DNA of 64,000 nt, from NCBI GenBank assembly GCA_017355425.1, contig CP070233.1, positions 5,179,501 through 5,243,500 of the forward strand. Direction: 5' to 3'. Under the pieces are notes generated by a model. The model ran no database searches. It was not told the DNA's origin and saw nothing but the letters and a program-made list of their open reading frames with translations. A program made the position numbers and the translations under genes. Below are positions 2,346 through 9,289 of the stretch, in pieces. Positions within the stretch are counted from its first letter, which is position 1; each line of letters begins with the position of its first letter. The DNA is from Dolichospermum sp. DET69 (GTDB taxonomy: Bacteria; Cyanobacteriota; Cyanobacteriia; Cyanobacteriales; Nostocaceae).

Positions 2346-2392
2346 TTTGTTATTATTAATTTAATATAGTCATAAAATTGGAGTTTAAACCC

Positions 2393-2710
2393 ATGACACA
2401 ACTAACACCAAAAACAGCAAGAAGAAGAGGAAGGATTTTTCCTGAACTGACTTTATCACCGGAAGAATTAGCTAGACGTAAAGCAGAAGATGAACAATTT
2501 TATCAACGTTGTTGGGCAATTTTTGAAAAATTGCTTCCTGAGTTGATAAAAGATCATTATGGTTGGTATATTGCCATAGAACCCGATAGTGGTGATTATT
2601 TCGTTAATCAAAATAAGGAAGTTGCTAGTAAGAAAGCAAGGGAGAAACATCCTAATCTGATACATTTTTTATTTGGCATCAATGAAACTGGAGTAACTGG
2701 GAGAATATGA
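2393..2710 (+). CDS. DUF5678-like small protein
   Basis: A 105-aa soluble protein of unknown function. The middle reads HYGWYIAIEPDSGDYFVNQN and the end reads LIHFLFGINETGVTGRI. Both resemble the DUF5678 pattern (GxY-hhh-G-deviation, then KARxxxPN and FLFRINE) as I remember it. The start is the ATG at 2393, preceded by GGAG at 2380-2383; the TTG at 2378 overlaps that ribosome site and is unlikely. Its stop overlaps the next ATG (ATGA), so it is coupled to the retropepsin-like gene. A broken duplicate lies immediately upstream. Confidence 0.65.
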   Translation: MTQLTPKTARRRGRIFPELTLSPEELARRKAEDEQFYQRCWAIFEKLLPELIKDHYGWYIAIEPDSGDYFVNQNKEVASKKAREKHPNLIHFLFGINETGVTGRI

Positions 2711-3069
2711 TCGAGGGTTATTTTGGTGATGGGGGGCGGTTATTTTTTGAGGTTGAATTAATTACTACTGATGGCTTAAATCTGCCTGTGGATACTTTGT
2801 TTGATACTGGTTTCACAGGCTTTATGGCTATTAATAAACAAGATTTACAAGGTCTAAATTGGCCATTTATATCTAAGGAAAAGTTAAGAACTGCACAGGG
2901 AGAGTCGAGATTTGATCTTTATTCTGGTAAGGTGATTTTGGATAATCAAGAGTATAAAATTCCTGTTTATGCTGGAGATGAATTAACGGAAATTTTATTG
3001 GGTTCAGCGTGGTTGGAGTTTTTGCCTTTGGTGGTGAATTTTCAACAGAGTATTTTGACTTTGGGATGA
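2707..3069 (+). CDS. Retropepsin-like aspartyl protease (clan AA) family protein
   Basis: A 120-aa protein. The N-terminal half carries VDTLFDTGFTGFMAI, the D-T-G flap-forming active-site pattern of single-lobe retropepsin-like proteases. The second half has the conserved ILLGSAWLEFL hydrophobic-Gly motif. Such proteins act as homodimers, and no substrate is predictable. It is translationally coupled (ATGA) to the DUF5678-like gene. The pair forms a compact, duplicating cassette resembling toxin-antitoxin modules in size and layout; that functional parallel is inference only. Confidence 0.7.
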   Translation: MIEGYFGDGGRLFFEVELITTDGLNLPVDTLFDTGFTGFMAINKQDLQGLNWPFISKEKLRTAQGESRFDLYSGKVILDNQEYKIPVYAGDELTEILLGSAWLEFLPLVVNFQQSILTLG

Positions 3070-3133: not shown

Positions 3134-3400
3134 ATGCAATTGGAAATTCAGCTTGATGATGACTGTGTTCAAAAACTTGCGTATATTCAGGAACAGACTA
3201 ATCAAGATTTTAGTGAAGCTATTAAACAAGCTATTGAAAAATACTATAACCAAGTTCAAACTAATAATAAACCGCCTTTAGCAATATTTAAAGAACTTGG
3301 TTTAGTCGGATGTTTTAATGGTGATTCTGATCTGTCTGTTACTTATAAAACAAAAATGGCTGACTATCTTCAGGATAAACAAAAAGAAGAGCGATTATGA
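3134..3400 (+). CDS. Ribbon-helix-helix-like antitoxin (VapB-type)
   Basis: An 88-aa protein. Residues 1-40 (MQLEIQLDDDCVQKL...FSEAIKQAIEKYY) have the beta-strand plus two amphipathic helices of RHH DNA-binding antitoxins. The C-terminal half is expected to bind the toxin. GAGG lies 7 bases before the ATG. The stop overlaps the start of the PIN toxin gene by 4 bp, the usual antitoxin-first arrangement. It should repress its own promoter in complex with the toxin. Confidence 0.72.
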   Translation: MQLEIQLDDDCVQKLAYIQEQTNQDFSEAIKQAIEKYYNQVQTNNKPPLAIFKELGLVGCFNGDSDLSVTYKTKMADYLQDKQKEERL

Positions 3401-3819
3401 TTATTGTTGATACTGGTGCTTTATTAGCGTTGTTTAACCAAAGAGATACTTATCATTTTCAAGCACAAATTGCATTTAATAATATTTCAGAACCACTAAT
3501 TTCAACTTATCCAGTAGTTACTGAAACTTGTTATATGTTAACACAATTTGCTAGTGATACAGCCTCATTCAATTTTTTAAAAAGTTTTTGTTTAGGTGCT
3601 TTTGAGATTTTTTATCTTGAAAAGTATCATGTTGAAAGGATAATTGAATTAATGGAAAATTACGCAAATTTACCAATGGATTTAGCAGATGCTTCGCTGG
3701 TTGTACTTGCTGAACATCTGCAAAATGGGCGGATTTTTACAAAAGAAGGGAACAGGGAACAGGGAACAGGGAACAGGGAACAGGGAACAGATAAGAAACA
3801 CTCATTTGCACCAGTTTAA
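3397..3819 (+). CDS. PIN-domain toxin (VapC-type) with repeat-derived C-terminus
   Basis: A PIN ribonuclease domain. Acidic residues D5 (MIIVDTGAL), E43 (VVTETCY), D95 and D98 (MDLADASL) fit the Mg-binding tetrad. It would cleave RNA (tRNA or mRNA) and is neutralised by the preceding RHH protein. After GRIFTKE (about residue 117) the frame runs into six GGGAACA heptamers, translated as NREQGTGNREQGT, and ends at residue 140. PIN domains of this subgroup normally finish with RIFTxDxxDF and a last strand, so the original tail has probably been replaced. Activity is therefore uncertain. Confidence 0.75.
   Translation: MIIVDTGALLALFNQRDTYHFQAQIAFNNISEPLISTYPVVTETCYMLTQFASDTASFNFLKSFCLGAFEIFYLEKYHVERIIELMENYANLPMDLADASLVVLAEHLQNGRIFTKEGNREQGTGNREQGTDKKHSFAPV
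3748..3791 (+). repeat. Heptameric short tandem repeat (GGGAACA)n inside vapC 3' end
   Basis: About six direct copies of the heptamer GGGAACA. A short inverse copy (GTTCCCTGTTCCC) lies at 3932-3944. The same heptamer array recurs at 31618-31660. STRR heptamers of this type are well known from heterocystous cyanobacteria. Confidence 0.9.
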
Positions 3820-4053: not shown

Positions 4054-5523
4054 TTAATTAATTGGTAAATCTCGTAGGTAGTAAAATTTATCTGTTTTCC
4101 CATCGTTTGCTTTTTCTCTTCCTAAGTAACCTGTTAATGGTGATGATAGTTCTATTAAAATTTCGTGCATTTCTCCTGGTTTTAATGGTTGTGGTGGGTT
4201 TGAACCGAAATATGCACCATCTAAAGTATCAACTCCAGCAGATTCTATTCCTGAGTTTTGTAGATAGTTTTTGACAAGTTGGATAATGTGCGATCGCAAT
4301 TTAATCTCTTTTTCTATTTTATCTATATATTCATTAATTTTATCATCAATTTGCCCCGGTTCTAAGTATTTCTGTAATTCAATTAAGTTTATTGCACCTG
4401 GATATTTTGCTTTGAGTTCTACTAATTTTTGTAATGTCATAGCTTTGATAATACTGACTTTCCATTGTTGTGATGATTTTTGAGTATCTGAGGTAGCGTT
4501 ACCTGGTCCTATTACCAATTTGGCCGAGTTGATAAATTGTTCTCTACCTAAGTGCATTCCACCAAGTTTAATTAATTCCTCAACTGTACGGCTAGGAATA
4601 CTTTTACCTGCTTTACATTCACAAACTAAAGCATAAGGTTGTGAACAATATAAGTCTAAACCTCCTGCACCTCCTTTATAAGCAGTTTCAACTTTAAATC
4701 CTAAAAAATCAAGGCTATCCCGTGCGATATTTTCAAAGTCTGTACCCGCTTGATAGTTGCTTTTTTTCTCTTCTAGTTCTATGCTTCTATCTCCTAATGT
4801 TGTAATTGTTTTTATCCAATCCAGACTTTGATCTAATTTTGTAATAGGTGGAACACTATACCAGCCTAGAAATTGCTTAATGTCGTGATTAAGTTTTTCA
4901 ATATCTGGATTGGTTGCTGAAATATTTTGACATTGAAACTGTAAGGTTTCTATATTTTGGTATGGAGAAATATTTCCAGACAAAATTAAGCTTTTTCGGT
5001 TGCTAAAACTAGAATCAGAAACCACAGAAATATCATTTTCACTTGCATGATTTACTATATCTTCAGATTTAGTCCAATAAAATGAACCTGTATCAGTTGG
5101 TATATTAACTATGCAATGTTTGGAAAGATAGTAAACTCGCAATATCAATAATTTGAGAAATTTCTGCTGTTCAAATATCTTTTCTAAAGCAGTCAAATTC
5201 CAAATTGTTGATTGTGCAATTTTCGGTAAAAGATCCTTTTGCTCAGGATTAATACGCCATTGATATTCACAACGCGCCCAAAATTTAAGATGAATAGGAT
5301 ATGTTGAATATTTAGCTAAGGCATTTTTAGCTTTTGCTAAATATTCAGGTTGATAGTATTCCTCTAAGCTGAGATTATCTGGAAGTTTTTGAGATGGATA
5401 TAACCAAAATGATTTACCTTCATTTTGAAACTGCTTAAAAGGTACTACAATCAATTTCCCCAAAGCCAGCATTTCTATATCAAAAGCTGGTAATTGAATT
5501 CCATTCATTATTTGAATATTCAT
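4054..5523 (-). CDS. DUF1802-like domain fused to PD-(D/E)XK nuclease
   Basis: A 489-aa protein. The N-terminal ~160 residues resemble DUF1802: GKLIVVPFKQF, then FWLYPSQ, then HLKFWARCEYQW, then LLILRVYYLSKH and a final W. Residues ~255-325 form a restriction-endonuclease-like core: E264 in GTDFENIARD, D290 in GGAGGLDLY and E302/K304 in VCECKAGK. That is a complete E...D...ExK nuclease signature. The C-terminal part (~365-489) is charged and helical with no domain recognised. The start is the ATG at 5523, one base past the ATPase stop; a GTG at 5538 would overlap the ATPase by 14 bp. It is the last gene of a three-gene operon and is probably the effector nuclease. Confidence 0.72.
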   Translation of the reverse strand: MNIQIMNGIQLPAFDIEMLALGKLIVVPFKQFQNEGKSFWLYPSQKLPDNLSLEEYYQPEYLAKAKNALAKYSTYPIHLKFWARCEYQWRINPEQKDLLPKIAQSTIWNLTALEKIFEQQKFLKLLILRVYYLSKHCIVNIPTDTGSFYWTKSEDIVNHASENDISVVSDSSFSNRKSLILSGNISPYQNIETLQFQCQNISATNPDIEKLNHDIKQFLGWYSVPPITKLDQSLDWIKTITTLGDRSIELEEKKSNYQAGTDFENIARDSLDFLGFKVETAYKGGAGGLDLYCSQPYALVCECKAGKSIPSRTVEELIKLGGMHLGREQFINSAKLVIGPGNATSDTQKSSQQWKVSIIKAMTLQKLVELKAKYPGAINLIELQKYLEPGQIDDKINEYIDKIEKEIKLRSHIIQLVKNYLQNSGIESAGVDTLDGAYFGSNPPQPLKPGEMHEILIELSSPLTGYLGREKANDGKTDKFYYLRDLPIN

Positions 5524-5524
5524 A

Positions 5525-7366
5525 TCACACCGGCGCACTCAAAATTTCACAAATTAATAGATTATCAGCAGCAAGACTTAAATCTTTCACAAATTGAGTT
5601 ACCTCTTCTTTGGTAAATCCATAGTCTTCAGCTTGTTCATAAATTTTTTGAATCGCTACTAGAGGTTTAATATCATTTTTTTTCAAAACGACTACTTCAC
5701 CACCTTGCTGTTTTTCCAGTTTTTCTTTAAGCTCATATCCAGTTTTCCAATTGCGAGGAACATCAGTAGAACGTACTAAACAACCACGAGTAATTCCATA
5801 TTTATGATAATCTAATAATCTCCTAATTACTGCATTAAATGTATTTCCATTTGTTGTTTCACATATTCTTACACCAATTTTTACCTCGCATATATTTAAG
5901 CAGTCATAACCAGAGATAATAAAATGTAAATCATGTGTTGCATCAGCAATTTTTTTAACTTCTTGAATTACTACATCTGCTGTACCACCATTAGGAATCA
6001 TAGTCATAGCACAGAGAATTATTGCTGCTAACTGATCATCCTCTTTCATTGGTACACGAATTTGTTTAAGTAACTCTTGATAGGTTTCTAAAAATTGTTT
6101 ATTTTTATCTAGTGGTAATGGGGGATCTACTGGTTCGTTACCTTTTGTTCCCAGTGGTTGAATAATTACCTTTTCAAACTCGTCAGCGCACCAGATCATC
6201 AAAGAACGCGCACCAGCAGATTCACTAGCAATATGTCTAATTTTGCTTTCCTCAAAAGGATATAAATGAGGATAATCTTGAGAATTGAGGCTATTATTTT
6301 TATAAAACCAATCTAGTCTGAGCTTAACCAATTCTATAGTTTCTTCAGTAGTAGGTGGTTTGGCTCTAACTGCTCTTTGACCAACTCGATCTGGAATACC
6401 ACTTCCCATTTGCTCAATTTCTCGCCATGTGTCACTAATAACGCAGCAAATCAGAATTACATTACTACATTGAAAGTAGATTTGATCGATACATTTAGCA
6501 ATTGTTTGAGCAGGACTATCTCCAGAATCATTATCAGTACCAGCACTATCAAGTTGATCAAAACAAATTACCACTGGTAATGATGCTACTTCAGCTAATT
6601 TGCAAATTTGCTGTATCATCCAGATAGATTTATCTTCTTGTATATCAAGTGAAAATTCTGGTAATCCTATTGTTTTAAGCTCTGAATTATCCTCTCCTTT
6701 AATCCAAGCTAAAGAAATTTGAGCAATTTTTACATTTTTCAAAAGTAGAAATAATAGTGCTTTTAAAAAGTTGAAATCAATTCCAGTTTGATTTTCTAAA
6801 ATTGCTTCAACTAATTCATCAAAAAAGCTTAATAGAGTGGTTTTAGTTTGACTTGCTACAATATATTTTCGTAATTCATCAGGTGAATTACATTTTTCAA
6901 TATATGAGCGATATTTATCCTCAAACTCTGTTCCTTTTAAAGTATTAATTGCTGCTGCTGCTAATTTTTGCCATTGAGTGATTCCTTTACTATTTTGATA
7001 TGTAAAACTATCAGCTAAGTATAAACGTACATGAGAGTTAATTCGTTTGGGATTAGCACAAGGACCAATATAGGCAAAAATAGAATCTCCTTCTTGTGTT
7101 ATTTTTTTCCATACCCTATGTATAATATGACTTTTGCCAGTACCTCGATCACCTTTAATTGTAATTCCAATTTTACTAGAATACTTTTTACGTACCTCAG
7201 AAATTGCATCAAATATTCTTTCGTCAATATGTTGATTCAGTCCAGATAAATCAGTAATAACATCACCCCAAACTTCATTAGCTGTTATTACTGATTTCAG
7301 TCGAAAAGGATTTGCAGATTCTTTACGTGCCTTATCAAGTAAGGCATATTTATCTGTATTTGACAT
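5525..7366 (-). CDS. Large AAA/P-loop ATPase, likely defence-system motor
   Basis: A 613-aa protein. Walker A is GDRGTGKS (residues ~72-79). Walker B is VVICFDQLD (~265-273), followed by a disordered stretch with SGDSPAQTIAKCID. The long spacing between the two, the ITIKGDRGTGKSHIIHRVW context and a C-terminal half ending in HTH-like helices recall ORC/STAND-like or BREX-type motor ATPases; no exact family was recognised. The ATG at 7366 is preceded by AGGAAA at the right distance and is preferred over the upstream TTG (7390). It sits 24 bp after the small first gene and 1 bp before the nuclease gene, so one operon is very likely. Confidence 0.72.
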   Translation of the reverse strand: MSNTDKYALLDKARKESANPFRLKSVITANEVWGDVITDLSGLNQHIDERIFDAISEVRKKYSSKIGITIKGDRGTGKSHIIHRVWKKITQEGDSIFAYIGPCANPKRINSHVRLYLADSFTYQNSKGITQWQKLAAAAINTLKGTEFEDKYRSYIEKCNSPDELRKYIVASQTKTTLLSFFDELVEAILENQTGIDFNFLKALLFLLLKNVKIAQISLAWIKGEDNSELKTIGLPEFSLDIQEDKSIWMIQQICKLAEVASLPVVICFDQLDSAGTDNDSGDSPAQTIAKCIDQIYFQCSNVILICCVISDTWREIEQMGSGIPDRVGQRAVRAKPPTTEETIELVKLRLDWFYKNNSLNSQDYPHLYPFEESKIRHIASESAGARSLMIWCADEFEKVIIQPLGTKGNEPVDPPLPLDKNKQFLETYQELLKQIRVPMKEDDQLAAIILCAMTMIPNGGTADVVIQEVKKIADATHDLHFIISGYDCLNICEVKIGVRICETTNGNTFNAVIRRLLDYHKYGITRGCLVRSTDVPRNWKTGYELKEKLEKQQGGEVVVLKKNDIKPLVAIQKIYEQAEDYGFTKEEVTQFVKDLSLAADNLLICEILSAPV

Positions 7367-7390
7367 TTTAATTATTTTCCTATTTGACAA

Positions 7391-8050
7391 TTACAATGGT
7401 TTACTAACGAAAAATAGAAGCCCTCTTATTTCACTATTAATAGAGTCTTTTTTCTGTTCTTCAGTCGCTCCTCGTGCTTCTCCACTTTGGAGATATAATA
7501 ATTTCTCTGCTTGCATATCCATGATCCAAGTATTAAATTGATCGCGTTGTAAACGATTTTCTACCTCTTTGCGTATCTGCCAAATAGGAACTAACCCAGC
7601 ATGACTATAGCTTTTATCTAGCTTGTTAAATAAATCAATAATCTCTGACTTAAACTCCTCATAAGAACCAATCACCCCACCAACAGAAACAACCGACGCA
7701 GCTATCACAACTGTATCCTTACCTATCCACCGTAACAACGCATTAGCTGCCCAAGTCCCAACAATAGTTCCCTCAAACTTAAACTCACCACTACGCAAAC
7801 CCGCACCCAACACATCTAAACCGATTGGTGACTTGAGAGTATAACCAGTCCTAGAAATAGTAACAGCCCCCTGTCCCTGCAAATCCTCTAAAATATCCTT
7901 ATAGTCCGCCATTTTCTGACCCTTAGCTACTATCCGCTTCGTCAGCAAACCTTTTTGCACTTCTTGTTGACTTGCTCCTAAATCCCATAAGGCAAGCAAC
8001 AAGCGTGTTTGAGCATACAAAGTCTGTGAATTCTTTTGTTCAGCGTTCAT
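7391..8050 (-). CDS. Unknown 219-aa protein, first gene of ATPase-nuclease operon
   Basis: No family was recognised. Residues ~10-75 read like a winged helix: helices with LLALWDLGAS and YKDILEDLQGQGA, then the short strands VTISRTGYTLKS. A Gly/Val-rich hydrophobic patch (VVIAASVVSVGGVIG, ~115-130) follows; it is too short and too isolated to be a confident membrane helix. The C-terminal third is helical and charged. AGGA lies 8 bases before the ATG. Leading an ATPase and a nuclease gene, it could be a sensor, adaptor or regulator; this is inference from context. Confidence 0.6.
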   Translation of the reverse strand: MNAEQKNSQTLYAQTRLLLALWDLGASQQEVQKGLLTKRIVAKGQKMADYKDILEDLQGQGAVTISRTGYTLKSPIGLDVLGAGLRSGEFKFEGTIVGTWAANALLRWIGKDTVVIAASVVSVGGVIGSYEEFKSEIIDLFNKLDKSYSHAGLVPIWQIRKEVENRLQRDQFNTWIMDMQAEKLLYLQSGEARGATEEQKKDSINSEIRGLLFFVSKPL

Positions 8051-8983: not shown

Positions 8984-9289
8984 ATGGTTAACGAATTTTT
9001 GCAAAAAGCGAAAGATTTTTTCGTAGGGTTGGGCGATAAACGAGAAGAAGAAGATACACGTCCACCTCGTGAAAATCCCTACAGCGACCCCGCAAACCAA
9101 GGCAACTTTGGCAATGTCCGTCCCGCTAGTGAAGACCCCTATGGCGACCCCGCCGACCAAGGCAACTTTGGCAATGTTCGCCCCGCTAGTGAAGACCCCT
9201 ATGGCGACCCCGCCGACCAAGGCAATTTTGGTAATGTTCGTCCCGCTAGTGAAGACCCCTATGGCGACCCCGCTGACGAGGAAAATTAA
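8984..9289 (+). CDS. Acidic tandem-repeat protein (20-residue repeats)
   Basis: A 101-aa protein. A short amphipathic N-terminus (MVNEFLQKAKDFFVGLGDK) is followed by a degenerate first repeat and three near-identical 20-residue repeats, GNFGNVRPASEDPYGDPADQ. These are encoded by 60-bp direct repeats at 9101-9160, 9161-9220 and 9221-9280. Composition (D, P, G, N) suggests an intrinsically disordered linker or scaffold. AAGGAG lies 7 bases before the ATG. No function is known to me. The copy number is likely to vary between strains by slippage or recombination. Confidence 0.72.
   Translation: MVNEFLQKAKDFFVGLGDKREEEDTRPPRENPYSDPANQGNFGNVRPASEDPYGDPADQGNFGNVRPASEDPYGDPADQGNFGNVRPASEDPYGDPADEEN
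9101..9280 (+). repeat. Three 60-bp tandem repeats within a coding sequence
   Basis: The period is exactly 60 bp, so the reading frame is kept when the copy number changes. The copies differ at a few mostly synonymous positions. Confidence 0.9.

Follow-up and report, generated by a model that had tools for sequence, protein, structure and literature searches.

A conserved three-gene ATPase-nuclease unit of cyanobacteria with an independently exchanged Mrr-like core

Results

The stretch of DNA analysed here (64,000 nucleotides of Dolichospermum sp. DET69, contig CP070233.1, positions 5,179,501 to 5,243,500; hereafter the window) holds three minus-strand genes in close succession, which we refer to as the trio: a gene for a protein of 219 amino acids (aa) (g219; 7391..8050), then one for a 613-aa AAA-type P-loop ATPase (5525..7366 from its ATG) and then one for a 489-aa nuclease, identified by domain matches and alignment, in which DUF1802 is joined to an Mrr-like core (4054..5523 from its ATG). 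The gaps between them are 24 bp and 1 bp. Both coordinates and gaps agree with an earlier description made from the letters of this DNA alone (the sequence-only reading), which had proposed the three genes as a defence operon.

A search for the ATPase across 386 genomes of the phylum gave matches in 83 at E ≤ 0.001 and in 53 at E ≤ 1e-26. The latter were taken as the strong set; by their sequences, the weaker matches look like other ATPase families. In regions around ATPase relatives, taken from 40 of the 53 strong-match genomes (not a random draw), g219, ATPase and nuclease follow each other in this order on one strand in 39 of 40, including two in which the ATPase reading frame is broken in two (L036 and L071); the fortieth (L037) is cut by a contig end. 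This neighbourhood survey shows homologues of the three genes kept as a unit and not scattered independently, as the sequence-only reading had allowed they might be. Similarly, among the 194 genomes with handles G000 to G193 (that the 194 correspond to this range is inferred from the handles), a DUF1802 frame of at least 428 aa, the length of a fusion, occurs in 32, among them all 31 that carry a strong ATPase match; in the thirty-second (G151) the nuclease lies at a contig start and the g219 gene at a contig end.

When the nuclease alignment was used to scan 84,980 species genomes, 258 relatives were returned, of which the best 80 were taken; all of these 80 have cyanobacterial titles. They were retrieved with two peptide patterns, GGAGG-D and ELSSPL, so that the invariance of these two stretches is partly due to selection, while E264 and E302xK304 are not part of either pattern. 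Over the 40 regions, the best 80 loci, 11 loci from genomes lacking a strong ATPase match and the window, there are 113 complete units, distributed over 109 loci. Their two intergenic gaps have medians of 47 and 2 bp, and the exceptions among the counted loci are contig ends, split frames and extra copies. Some genomes are represented twice, as by L032 and L076, and counting identical units once left 109 distinct units, or 106 after a length filter that removed three. No constant fourth gene accompanies the trio in the loci examined. The trio is a real, conserved unit, with an arrangement far beyond chance that recurs across cyanobacterial families. Its occurrence is patchy: within the family of the window's organism, 31 of the 42 listed genomes have a strong ATPase match.

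The N-terminal part of the nuclease (residues 11-177; 4993..5493, minus strand) belongs to DUF1802 (PF08819), with an E value of 2.1e-17 and 63.9 bits against a cut-off of 25. The same model matches all 28 members of the nuclease family (best 6.1e-38), and profile comparison of this part with 14 stand-alone DUF1802 proteins gave a probability of 98.6% (E 6.8e-16), against 0.14-1.1% for control comparisons of unrelated pairs. Further downstream lies a PD-(D/E)XK core (about residues 259-376; 4396..4749) with the catalytic residues E264, D290, E302 and K304 (counted from the ATG), all four of which are unvarying in 106 of 106 units, subject to the retrieval bias noted above. Aligned by hhalign with 13 cyanobacterial Mrr_cat sequences, this core scored 91.8% (E 7.5e-7), the alignment covering the active site. 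The Pfam model Mrr_cat (PF04471) itself matches 17 of the 28 family members (best 1.1e-4); no Mrr_cat match is listed in the Pfam scan of the window's own nuclease. Both halves of the proposed fusion between DUF1802 and an E...D...ExK core are confirmed, one by Pfam above its cut-off and the other by profile; the Pfam text already notes an association of DUF1802 with Mrr_cat. A C-terminal motif, LIELSSPLTGYLGR (4117..4158, minus strand), is near-invariant across the 106 units, a value partly biased by the use of this motif as one of the retrieval patterns. Searches against solved structures returned two chance-level matches for the nuclease, and the family profiles yielded nothing useful (best E 0.86, 0.0082 and 0.4). 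Other DUF1802 frames are mostly about 190-280 aa long and stand alone; in this stand-alone form the gene is common among cyanobacteria, and no operon partner is constant. DUF1802, which the sequence-only reading suggested could be a targeting or nucleic-acid-binding module, was also considered as an ASCH/PUA-like domain, a reading dropped because its profile comparison (0.6%) lies at the level of the unrelated controls.

The ATPase is matched by general AAA models, all below their cut-offs, both for the window protein (AAA_16 at 6.8e-4) and for 28 members of its family. Its Walker A motif, GDRGTGKS (7130..7153, minus strand), is complete, and G75, G77, K78 and D270 are invariant in the 28-row alignment; the key Gly and Lys of Walker A are kept in 105 of 106 units, the remaining one being a gap. 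The Walker B region, VVICFDQ (6554..6574, minus strand), retains the Asp, which is present in all 106 units, but carries a natural Gln where Glu is usual. This residue is Glu in 92 units and Gln in 14. Within A1, the ATPase clade to which the window belongs, Gln is found in 10 of 11 units, versus 4 of the 95 units outside it. The statement that Walker A and B are both intact thus stands for the former and needs correction for the latter. No solved structure matched the window ATPase sequence, and YTH matches of the ATPase profile were taken as chance because the matched stretch falls outside Walker A.

In the 219-aa protein, a weakly winged-helix-like N-terminal half precedes a conserved C-terminal domain. 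Its earlier description as winged-helix-like holds in so far as some of the 28 family members give matches of this type (SelB-wing_2 in nine, best 0.0063), but all of these are weak and below threshold. In some loci a paralogue of 324-332 aa lies upstream of the trio (L073:5659-6657 and L042:6885-7859; a gene of similar size is found in L074). It combines a domain resembling the N-terminal part of g219 with a long, histone-H1-like tail rich in Lys, Ser, Thr and Ala, a composition that hints at nucleic-acid binding.

Among the 106 units, ATPase and DUF1802 clusters agree in 11 of 11 units of clade A1 and in 91 of 92 of the main clade, whereas four clusters of the nuclease core (N1, N2, N3 and N8) occur with both clades. 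Pairwise identities of ATPase and DUF1802 correlate at 0.72, against 0.18 for ATPase and core. Trees were built from 45 of the 106 units, namely all 11 of A1 and 34 picked for diversity, with two to three long-branched rows. On the DUF1802, ATPase and g219 trees, A1 requires a single change, with full support in each; since A1 was defined on the ATPase, it is bound to be united on the ATPase tree, and the other two trees are independent of that definition. On the core tree, A1 needs nine changes (strong branches force eight of these), close to the mean of 9.9 obtained with shuffled labels. A core tree constrained to keep A1 together was rejected (approximately unbiased test, P = 1.5e-91).

The same mixing is seen among 16 genomes of the window's own genus. 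The window's type of DUF1802 (86-100% identity) occurs in five of them, and the core identities, measured against the window, are 75, 72, 76 and 42%; the 42% core belongs to a copy at a contig start with one stop (L226), and the 76% core lies on a different contig from its DUF1802 part (L236). The other type of DUF1802 (27-30%) is found in six genomes, with core identities of 91, 89, 88, 74, 52 and 44%. Two genomes (G390 and G243) have nuclease remnants alone, and no match was obtained in three (G388, G386 and G125). Together, these alignments and trees indicate that ATPase, DUF1802 and g219 share one history, and that the Mrr-like core is exchanged independently of them, even within the window's genus. 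Homogenization of cores between tandem trios was considered and dropped, as the two copies of L073 have different core clusters.

The trio is considerably more divergent than its surroundings. Over 25 loci, median pairwise identity is 45% for the ATPase, 58% for the nuclease and 72% for g219, versus 83-88% for four neighbouring genes, and core exchange contributes to this high divergence. Ka/Ks values of 0.12-0.31 in nine comparisons of the window copy with three relatives show that the window copy is under purifying selection.

Where both anchor sides are present, the ATPase lies between them in 38 of 44 loci. The anchors were named by eye: one flank is formed by ndhO/mdh-like genes, the opposite one by a 528-aa gene and an 85-aa gene together with ABC-transporter genes; the window has the ndhO/mdh side of this conserved site. 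The value of 38 of 44 is not a frequency, because five of the six anchored loci without the ATPase came from genomes chosen for having no strong match. In place of the trio, L153 has a ResIII/DEAD helicase (2.9e-14) and L157 a NACHT protein (9.5e-14); L154 retains remnants at the site and L156 nothing, and of the trio L146 has kept the g219 gene and the nuclease only. In a relative of the same genus, a g219 remnant is followed by genes of 433 and 335 aa without clear family (L161:12630-14957).

Additional copies were also observed. At least two trios stand in tandem in L073, L074, L079 and L147, and in the first three of these one trio is of clade A1 and one of the main clade. In L043, L075, L141 and L147, further ATPases belonging to this family stand immediately upstream of the trio, with no accompanying nuclease. 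These were considered as a variant system and rejected, the 262/263-aa gene beside two of them resembling, by eye, a PhzF-type metabolic enzyme.

Several small genes flank the trio in the window. The VapBC-type pair of the sequence-only reading is real, consisting of an RHH gene (5.1e-4, just below cut-off) and a PIN gene (7.5e-8), and is not constant beside the trio. The 3' end of the PIN frame (3397-3819) enters a 7-bp tandem repeat, AGGGAAC (6.3 copies; 3747-3790), so that the C-terminus of the protein is made of repeat. In many relatives the trio has beside it a recurring pair, in some cases in tandem, made up of a 110-aa gene and a 120-aa gene that is aspartyl-protease-like (2378-3069 in the window). 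The Pfam match behind the name protease is weak (0.0049, below cut-off), but the recurrence of the gene holds: it lies within 3 kb of 29 of the 106 units, on the opposite strand every time. On the other side, DPYGDPAD-type units are encoded by a 60-bp tandem repeat (3.5 copies; 9069-9277) within a small gene (8984-9289), and similar genes are found near the trio in relatives.

Discussion

The explanation that we favour is that the operon encodes one multi-part, ATP-dependent, restriction-like system for cutting DNA. In such a system, recognizing or licensing the target would fall to the AAA-type ATPase jointly with DUF1802, the 219-aa protein would act as adaptor or sensor, and these three parts would form a recognition complex; the Mrr-like PD-(D/E)XK core would then cut foreign or wrongly modified DNA, with protection against phages or plasmids as the presumed outcome. 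That the trio is a restriction-like, ATP-dependent nuclease acting against foreign DNA, with a role in defence, is a reading we consider about evenly balanced between right and wrong. In its favour stand the conserved gene order, the fused-length DUF1802 frame present in all 31 strong-match genomes of the G000 to G193 set, the invariant active site, purifying selection, and the helicase and NACHT protein that take the place of the trio at two sites. The reading is held at this level because divergence, patchy loss and core exchange fit a conflict with phages or plasmids better than they fit repair, yet its location among housekeeping genes, with no defence genes nearby, points the other way. 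A more specific version, in which the trio is a resident cyanobacterial immune locus whose ATPase and DUF1802 co-evolve as a recognition complex while the core is a swappable cassette, recombining under phage pressure to give changing combinations at a fixed site, is offered as a tentative proposal, possible rather than probable.

A number of observations weigh against a role in defence. The locus had been described as lying in what looks like a defence island, a description that did not hold: the trio occupies a conserved chromosomal site with mostly housekeeping neighbours, copies at other sites likewise have neighbours that appear housekeeping-like by eye, and in L152 the place of the trio is taken by two genes that look like oxidoreductases (by eye). 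No copy of the nuclease was found on 72,556 plasmid records, 50,697 phage records or the viral contigs searched, and none of the ATPase on the plasmid records searched; on this basis a mobile element was rejected. Stand-alone DUF1802 genes have no visible link to defence. PADLOC gave only Avs2 (0.0025) for the ATPase among the window proteins, and only weak matches in the families (nuclease, best 1.7e-5 in one of 28 members; ATPase, best 2.1e-4 in five of 28), the g219 family being represented by the window protein alone. Finally, the Walker B Gln of clade A1 may mean that ATP is hydrolysed slowly or not at all.

Some of these same observations would suit a resident chromosomal system that processes the cell's own DNA, in repair, recombination, uptake or stress, and for which immunity is not the main role. 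Its conserved position among housekeeping genes, the failure to find mobile copies and the commonness of stand-alone DUF1802 in cyanobacteria all favour such a system, as do replication-type AAA matches among the 28 ATPase family members (Hda in 20, DnaA in seven). However, the trio is often missing or decayed, as the 31 of 42 family genomes and the losses within the genus illustrate, its sequences have diverged much further than those of the adjoining genes, and exchange of a nuclease core is unusual for repair enzymes; we therefore regard own-DNA processing as rather unlikely, if deserving of real weight. The layout of adaptor, ATPase and nuclease could also serve abortive infection or dormancy, the ATPase complex sensing infection or stress and releasing the nuclease against DNA or RNA of the cell itself. 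The toxin-antitoxin-like RHH-PIN neighbours in the window, as well as an RHH gene in the corresponding position of L071, are in keeping with this, but the RHH-PIN pair is variable and no antitoxin-like partner is constant in the trio, which makes such a device quite improbable. A decaying relic, or three unrelated genes adjacent by chance, might be suspected from ATPase frames broken in L036, L071 and L138 and from remnants elsewhere; the low Ka/Ks, the invariant active site and the conserved gene order speak so clearly to the contrary that we give this explanation practically no weight, and for the window copy it is already contradicted.

If the restriction-like reading of the trio is right, DUF1802 gains a function in at least one setting, and the known systems are joined by an ATPase-nuclease system without a name, present in many filamentous cyanobacteria. 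It would also follow that a defence-like locus can keep one chromosomal position and vary through exchange of modules and not by way of mobile islands. The genus of the window provides a natural experiment, with relatives that share the recognition part and differ in the core, or vice versa; which module sets the target is therefore testable.

In line with the sequence-only reading, no named system was found to fit the trio: no Pfam or NCBIfam model above its cut-off names it as a system. A description of the trio was not found in the literature searched, whose coverage leaves out preprints and most subscription journals; within the same coverage, DUF1802 turns up only in work on soil gene networks and Sll1717 not at all. 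Thirteen and 17 of the 28 ATPase members show weak AAA similarity to the NCBIfam DS41_1 anti-phage ATPase and the Sll1717-family ATPase, respectively. As identifications, both were rejected: none of 98 genomes exceeds the 370-bit cut-off of DS41_1, and the window ATPase reaches 24.3 bits against the cut-off of 75 for the Sll1717 family (NF047389).

With the type IV restriction system McrBC, the likeness is functional only, in that an AAA-type motor and a PD-(D/E)XK nuclease are encoded in one operon; the Pfam matches of the window proteins and of the 28 nuclease members (first 25 of 27 families) include neither an McrB nor an McrC family, and the trio nuclease is Mrr-like. To Mrr-type restriction enzymes the relation is closer, as the PD-(D/E)XK core of the trio aligns with theirs over E...D...(E/Q)xK. 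The trio nuclease differs from them by its fusion to DUF1802, by having ExK and not QxK, and by its place in an operon with an ATPase and g219. Restriction-modification systems of types I-III are set apart by the absence of a methyltransferase from the trio. Type I restriction systems are subject to modular exchange of specificity; they have in common with the trio that one module is exchanged and its partners stay, but in the trio, which has no methylase, it is the nuclease core that is exchanged. New in the present analysis are the fixed three-gene unit, the distribution of this unit and the exchange of its core.

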